Assembly (NCBI GenBank): GCA_030640585.1
Contig: DAOWIZ010000039.1
Coordinates: 1-42,760, forward strand
Direction of reading: 5' to 3'
From: Thermoplasmata archaeon
Lineage (GTDB): Archaea; Thermoplasmatota; E2; DHVEG-1
DNA: 42,760 nt
The notes below the pieces were generated by a model. It did not search any database. It had not been told where the DNA came from and saw only the letters and a list, made by a program, of their open reading frames with translations. Positions 38,153 to 38,476 of the stretch are shown in pieces. Made by a program: the position numbers and the translations under genes. How positions within the stretch are numbered: position 1 is the first letter of the stretch; every line of letters begins with the position of its first letter.

Positions 38153-38208
38153 AAGACTATAGGGAAAAACTGTAGACTTATAAACCTGGTGCTAGAACGA
38201 AAAAAGAG

Positions 38209-38315
38209 TAGCGGGGAGTGGATTTGAACCACTGATCTACGGGTTATGGGCCCGTCGGGATCTCCTGGCTACCCCACCCTTATAGACAACAAACAAATTT
38301 TGTTTATTGTTCGCT
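38209..38315 (-). tRNA. Initiator tRNA-Met(CAT) with predicted 32-nt intron in the acceptor stem (exon 1 = 38312-38315, intron = 38280-38311, exon 2 = 38209-38279)
   Basis: Spliced sequence AGCG|GGGTGGGGTAGCC...ACGGG CCCATAA CCCGT...CCCCGCT A restores a 7-bp acceptor stem; GGG/CCC anticodon-stem pairs; full BHB at the junction. Confidence 0.85.
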
Positions 38316-38476
38316 ATGATGGGTAGCAACTCCGCCCCATATTCTAATTATTTTTTGGTGAATAACGTTTCTATTACTTAAAGTTAATACATATCTTCAA
38401 AGTAGTAAACTGAAAAATGAAGAAAAATATTATAAAGCCCATTATAAATAAAGATGTCAGGGAGGTTATAATATAT

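Follow-up and report, generated by a model that had tools for sequence, protein, structure and literature searches.

An initiator tRNA-Met gene with a predicted intron between nucleotides 4 and 5 and an associated leader element in uncultured Thermoplasmatota

Introns in the acceptor stem are known from tRNAs of Thermoproteales, where they lie at position 3/4 (Sugahara et al. 2008, as summarized in PMC4090602), and introns in "acceptor stem regions" are also mentioned in PMC12397907. For Euryarchaeota with alpha4 or alpha2 splicing endonucleases, a 2014 review lists introns only in canonical bulge-helix-bulge (BHB) motifs at position 37/38 (PMC4090602), and D-loop introns have been described in tRNA-Glu of Methanopyrus kandleri (PMC3695527). 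Initiator tRNA genes are split in Nanoarchaeum equitans and permuted in Thermofilum pendens (PMC3218864). We describe here an initiator tRNA-Met gene on the minus strand of a 42,760-nucleotide (nt) contig of a Thermoplasmata archaeon (DAOWIZ010000039.1, assembly GCA_030640585.1), the whole of which is referred to as the window. The gene appears to be interrupted by a 32-nt intron between nt 4 and 5 of the tRNA, and it is preceded by a leader element that is complementary to the 3' acceptor strand (Table 1).

This gene is the sole initiator tRNA-Met gene found in the metagenome-assembled genome (MAG) that contains the window (81% complete, 1.29 Mb, 102 contigs, 40 tRNA matches). From the unspliced sequence ARAGORN drew a distorted 71-nt tRNA, and all that ARAGORN and Rfam reported was a weakly scoring, truncated tRNA-Met. 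When the insert was removed, ARAGORN drew a normal tRNA-Met(CAU) with 7/7 acceptor pairs. The spliced sequence AGCGGGG...CCCCGCTA has the initiator hallmarks A1-U72, the CAU anticodon, and three G-C pairs at the bottom of the anticodon stem, with an anticodon arm reading GGGCCCATAACCC. Exon 2 is identical along its length to the corresponding part of the intact genes of three relatives (G003, G005, and G024). A split or permuted gene was considered and rejected, as both exons are on the same strand in the usual order, are separated by 32 nt, and share a BHB.

The locus was compared across a family of uncultured sediment archaea represented by 46 genomes, of which 14 have the 4/5 intron, 26 have an intact gene, and 6 yielded no gene. 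The intron lies exactly at 4/5 in the window's genome (G000) and in G002, G009, G010, G013, G016, G019, G021, G026, G027, G028, G032, G064, and G069, with lengths of 29 to 39 nt. Intron-bearing and intact genes have the same neighbors, an HGSNAT-like acyltransferase gene downstream and a small open reading frame (ORF) upstream, and the locus is therefore orthologous in both states.

The window's precursor can be folded into a canonical BHB (hBHBh') with an outer helix CCCAUC/GGUGGG, a 4-bp central helix AUAG/CUAU, 3-nt bulges CG↓A and AA↓G (arrows mark the predicted cuts), and a long A/U inner helix. The outer helix can be extended by CUACCC/GGGUAG with one bulged G, and the pairing of CTACCCATC in the leader with GGGTGGGGTAG in exon 2 occupies the 5' side of the D-arm. 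We counted pairing for 16 BHB pairs in the 14 sequences, anchored at the splice sites. Overall, 92% of the cells were paired, compared to 42 to 49% when the partners were slid, and the paired fraction was 95% in the outer, 98% in the central, and 84% in the inner helix. Two-sided changes were found at 6 BHB pairs, a number reached by 0 of 500 shuffles (shuffle mean, 2.9), and the whole-structure pairing measures were above all 500 shuffles and clearly above the slid versions. These two-sided changes are confined to the inner helix, where they involve all 6 pairs. The splice junction is marked by a compensation in G069, which has a 3' bulge AC↓A, an acceptor 3' strand CCTCGCT, and an A-U rather than a G-C pair at nt 5-68; the junction is therefore fixed, because this pair fits AGCG-AGG alone. 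The acceptor stem is restored by AGCG-GGG or AGCG-AGG in all 14 intron-bearing species. A distant relative outside the family, G091, has the outer helix CCUAUC/GGUAGG in place of CCCAUC/GGUGGG, a two-sided change in which U-A replaces C-G.

Some observations weigh against this interpretation. Inside the family the outer helix shows no double changes and the central helix is nearly invariant, with one mismatch in G002. The RNAfold probability of the central helix is only modest (0.26 in the window precursor at 37°C), as RNAfold penalizes 3-nt bulges. For RNase P RNA, the match in the window's genome is weak and short, against clear ones in G013, G019, and G091. With 81% completeness and 102 contigs a second gene copy could lie in the missing part of the MAG, which the 14 species make unlikely. 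As a marker of the intron, the outer helix was rejected as weak, since the intact genes of G003 and G024 also form 6/6 pairs by way of G-U. On the sequence evidence, the locus is very probably a functional initiator tRNA-Met gene, apparently present in a single copy, with a 32-nt 4/5 intron that is spliced through a canonical BHB. The first-pass annotation of this DNA had identified the gene as an initiator tRNA-Met and had given the same intron position, BHB, and junction, all of which hold with the sequence and the 14-species comparison. It named an intact second initiator gene as the finding that would speak against it; none was found in the 81%-complete genome, and in each of the 14 intron-bearing species the interrupted copy is the only strong initiator match. 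A comparison of the locus in relatives, which it suggested, shows the same break at the orthologous locus in the 14 species, and its proposal that the 5' leader belongs to the splice substrate is supported by the conservation of the leader and by the compensating U-A in G091.

The window's genome has one splicing endonuclease ORF, of 351 amino acids from the first ATG, with two endonuclease repeats. Tyr, His, and Lys are conserved in the C-terminal repeat at the positions that we take, from general knowledge of the family, to be catalytic. The closest solved relatives in sequence are PDB 5x89, 1a79, and 1r0v/2gjw, the last two being the A. fulgidus alpha'2 enzyme. With one polypeptide, two repeats, and the putative catalytic Tyr/His/Lys, the window's endonuclease is classified from its sequence as alpha'2-like. 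An endonuclease match was present in all family members examined, nearly always as one two-repeat ORF, and a comparison of the endonuclease stretches of intron-bearing and intact species revealed no insertion or motif that separates them. In G034 the two halves lie 375 kb apart (C1:1805122 and C1:1430345). A heteromeric enzyme was considered there, but a scaffolding break is likelier, because the N-terminal half runs into N's and the neighboring genes show a break. The A. fulgidus alpha'2 enzyme is a homodimer restricted to canonical BHBs (PMC12397907), a restriction that fits the finding of a canonical motif at a non-canonical place.

We propose that the leader, exon 1, the intron, and exon 2 fold as a BHB that replaces the D-arm and the 5' half of the acceptor stem. 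Nucleotides 1 and 2 and the first part of exon 2 are engaged in the BHB, so that neither the true acceptor stem nor the D-arm can form before splicing. The alpha'2-like endonuclease would cut at CG↓A and AA↓G, and tRNA ligase, which in archaea is RtcB, would join AGCG to GGG. Formation of the 7-bp acceptor stem, and removal of the leader by RNase P, would become possible only after these steps. In this model, splicing before 5' maturation would be structurally required.

The distribution of the intron is patchy. Mapped on the elongation factor 2 (EF-2) tree, it requires at least 7 changes of intron state when well supported branches are counted, and 11 on the best tree. A scan of other families of the same class found no 4/5 break of this sequence type, and a phylum sample of 393 genomes added one 4/5 intron, that of G091. 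A GTDB r220 scan found ten related disrupted genes, all in MAGs of Thermoplasmatota or "Euryarchaeota" and including SG8-52-3; its pattern skips genes with a 37/38 intron or an altered nt 5, so that it is an incomplete census. We favor one old gain of the intron followed by many losses in place, as judged from the homologous intron ends, the shared locus, the A5-U68 pair of G069 and its intact sister G035, and a strand resembling that of the outer helix in the leader of intact G020.

Side observations were made on several of these genomes. The leader of G020 (L038) ends in GGCTACTCATCAT, near the outer-helix strand and probably a relic of a lost intron. The initiator gene of G091 (L235, minus strand), which belongs to another family of the phylum, is predicted to contain introns of 34, 46, and 32 nt at the three positions 4/5, 37/38, and 59/60, respectively, and its four exons give a perfect 75-nt initiator tRNA; its leader holds only a weak acceptor complement (TGGTG). 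In other families of the order and class, the initiator genes of G038, G048, G050, G053-G056, G058, G072, and G073 gave matches interrupted near nt 39-40, a pattern that canonical 37/38 introns would produce. The EF-2 match of G064 is in two pieces (C89:59681-62099), with about 390 bases in place of about 40 missing residues, which may be a frameshift, an insertion, or an assembly error.

The minus-strand leader of the window's gene reads ...GGCGG-AGTTG-CTACCCATC-AT and is followed by AGCG. In the 14 intron-bearing genes the first element takes the form (A/G/T)GCGG, mostly within T-R-GCGG-KG and often extended to RGCGGGG. It copies part of the mature 5' end, TAGCGGGG, and lies about 21 to 32 nt upstream of exon 1. 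It was present in 14/14 intron-bearing and 0/26 intact leaders, a split that is descriptive, as the motif had been spotted before it was tested on the same genes. The intron and the element differ jointly in 7/7 independent species pairs (sign test, P = 0.016), and the leader seems to have co-evolved with the intron. RNAfold predicted that the element pairs with the 3' acceptor strand, with P ≥ 0.95 in 11 of the 14 precursors at 37°C and lower values in G000 (0.87), G064 (0.70), and G002 (0.42); at 15°C the value in the window precursor (G000) was 0.96. For several spliced precursors, folding predicts competition between the element and the true 5' acceptor strand. It should therefore carry a cost, which argues against neutrality and calls for active strand exchange or removal of the leader. 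This element, the patchy distribution, and the alpha'2-like enzyme go beyond the first-pass annotation, at the edge of whose interval GGCGG falls.

Our tentative proposal, to which we give a little less than an even chance, is that RGCGG acts as a surrogate acceptor strand that closes the tRNA end on the 3' acceptor strand until splicing. The closed, tRNA-like end of the unspliced RNA would serve 3' processing and protection, with strand exchange after splicing, so that 3' maturation could still come first as usual, and the intron and the surrogate would evolve, and be lost, as a single unit. In G069 (L143) the leader has GGCGGTGG opposite GGTGGTGG in the intact sister G035 (L079), which resembles a surrogate decaying after intron loss.

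Several findings weigh against such a surrogate and would also suit a DNA element of the promoter or of the initially transcribed region in place of an RNA strand that pairs with the acceptor. The predicted helix lacks covariation, with a 3' acceptor strand that is nearly invariant, and G069 has G-U at one of the pairs. The best complement in G000 and G069 is no better than in shuffled leaders. The distance from the element to a TATA-like box is 44 to 47 nt in 13/14 genes, whereas that to exon 1 is variable (21 to 32 nt). However, most intact orthologues retain the TATA-like box and none retains the element, which is missing wherever the intron is missing in the 7/7 independent pairs; furthermore, the element copies the mature 5' end and its predicted pairing is strong in most species. 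A role as a DNA element appears rather unlikely. The similarity of RGCGGGG to the 5' acceptor strand could also reflect a neutral, roleless relic of the duplication that made the intron, as a duplication at intron origin is plausible. We regard this as improbable: the element is retained in 14/14 intron-bearing leaders despite a diverged linker and is gone from intact genes, and intact G035 has GGTGG where its sister G069, with the intron, has GGCGG. The leader copy, which is exactly AGCGGGG in G019, G009, G021, and G027, might even be the true 5' acceptor strand, joined to TGGGGTAG by removal of an intron of about 60 nt between nt 7 and 8. That has next to no probability, since no BHB was seen at the nt 7/8 junction, and GGCGGAG (G000), GGCGGUG (G069), and AGCGGUC (G002) cannot give the acceptor stem of the family.

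The status of the gene and the history of the intron were weighed in the same way. A pseudogene or truncated tRNA, with the real initiator gene in the missing 19% of the genome, would accord with a MAG of 81% completeness and with the truncated 71-nt tRNA given by standard tools. We consider this very improbable, because the intron, the BHB, and the exons are retained at one locus in 14 species, none of which has another strong initiator match, and because covariation and the compensation at the junction point to selection on the spliced product. As for the history, the 7 or more state changes on the EF-2 tree (up to 11) and the similar 4/5 intron in the distant family of G091 might point to a mobile intron that was gained or transferred repeatedly, as opposed to a single old gain with many losses. 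This is unlikely in our view, as the locus and its neighbors are the same in both states, the unusual A5-U68 pair and the promoter sequence are common to G069 and its intact sister G035, and intact G020 retains CTACTCATCAT, which resembles the outer-helix strand, in its leader.

Table 1. Features of the initiator tRNA-Met locus, with positions in the window
Feature	Position	Strand	Evidence or remark
T6 run 3' of the gene, probable terminator	38200-38205	-	Sequence only
3' acceptor strand CCCCGCU + A73	38209-38216	-	Partnerless in the BHB-folded precursor; proposed target of the leader element
Exon 2, nt 5-73, GGGTGGGG...CCCCGCTA, CAU anticodon, CCA not encoded	38209-38279	-	Sequence
Intron, 32 nt, predicted cut sites CG↓A and AA↓G	38280-38311	-	Sequence and 14-species comparison
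Intron CTAT, 3' strand of the central helix	38282-38285	-	Sequence and pairing in 14 species
Exon 1, nt 1-4 (AGCG)	38312-38315	-	Invariant in 14 orthologues; spliced tRNA has 7/7 acceptor pairs
Leader AT, 5' strand of the central helix (first half)	38316-38317	-	Central helix 98% paired
Leader strand CTACCCATC, paired with GGGTGGGGTAG of exon 2 in the outer helix of the BHB	38318-38326	-	95% paired in 14 species
Leader element GGCGG, complementary to the 3' acceptor sequence CCGCU and proposed as a surrogate acceptor strand	38332-38336	-	14/14 vs 0/26 leaders
TATA-like element TTTAAGTA, putative TATA box	38375-38382	-	Common to most intact orthologues

The TATA-like element is part of a promoter-like block, TTTAAGTATAnGAAACAnTATTC (window 38357-38382, minus strand), that is conserved at the initiator loci of intron-bearing and most intact members of the family. 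A similar block, TTTTAAGTAG...TATTACGG, is found at the elongator Met gene and one Thr gene of the window's genome. A leaderless transcript with the "ATAT" before RGCGG as its TATA box was considered and rejected, since the outer-helix strand is conserved and has to lie within the transcript.

To make protein, these archaea would have to splice one tRNA with a 4-nt first exon. The family indicates that a canonical BHB can be built far from 37/38 by recruitment of the leader, in a lineage with an alpha'2-like enzyme. The leader element offers a testable idea of how a tRNA survives with a broken acceptor stem, and the many apparent losses in place make the family a good system for the study of intron loss. 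tRNAscan-SE 2.0, which extends candidates by 60 nt for introns near the ends (PMC8450103), may detect the 4/5 intron.

A literature search, with most subscription papers outside its reach, found no report of this 4/5 intron. The acceptor-stem intron is a known kind; the lineage, position 4/5, the initiator gene, the leader anatomy, and the alpha'2-like enzyme are new. The first-pass annotation was right that non-canonical intron positions are best known from Thermoproteota (PMC4090602). The Thermoproteales are Crenarchaeota with an (alpha beta)2 enzyme and introns at 3/4, whereas the present intron is found in Thermoplasmatota with an alpha'2-like enzyme, in the initiator tRNA, and at 4/5. This comparison covers position, lineage, enzyme, and gene; the leader element complementary to the acceptor is a feature of the present family. 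The canonical 37/38 introns that are probable in G038, G048, G050, G053-G056, and G058 are likewise introns of initiator tRNAs in the same class. However, a 37/38 intron leaves the acceptor stem and the D-arm formed, whereas here the BHB excludes both and the intron breaks the acceptor stem. As in N. equitans and T. pendens, the gene for this essential tRNA is in pieces, and the splicing endonuclease serves to reassemble the molecule; here, however, the pieces belong to a single transcript in normal order, with neither trans-splicing nor permutation. The tRNA-Glu of M. kandleri is similar in having an intron outside 37/38 in a euryarchaeon. The processing order reported there is the 3' end, the 5' end, modification, and intron removal (PMC3695527). 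This order, with the ends first and the intron last, should be inverted at the present locus, where splicing should precede 5' maturation.
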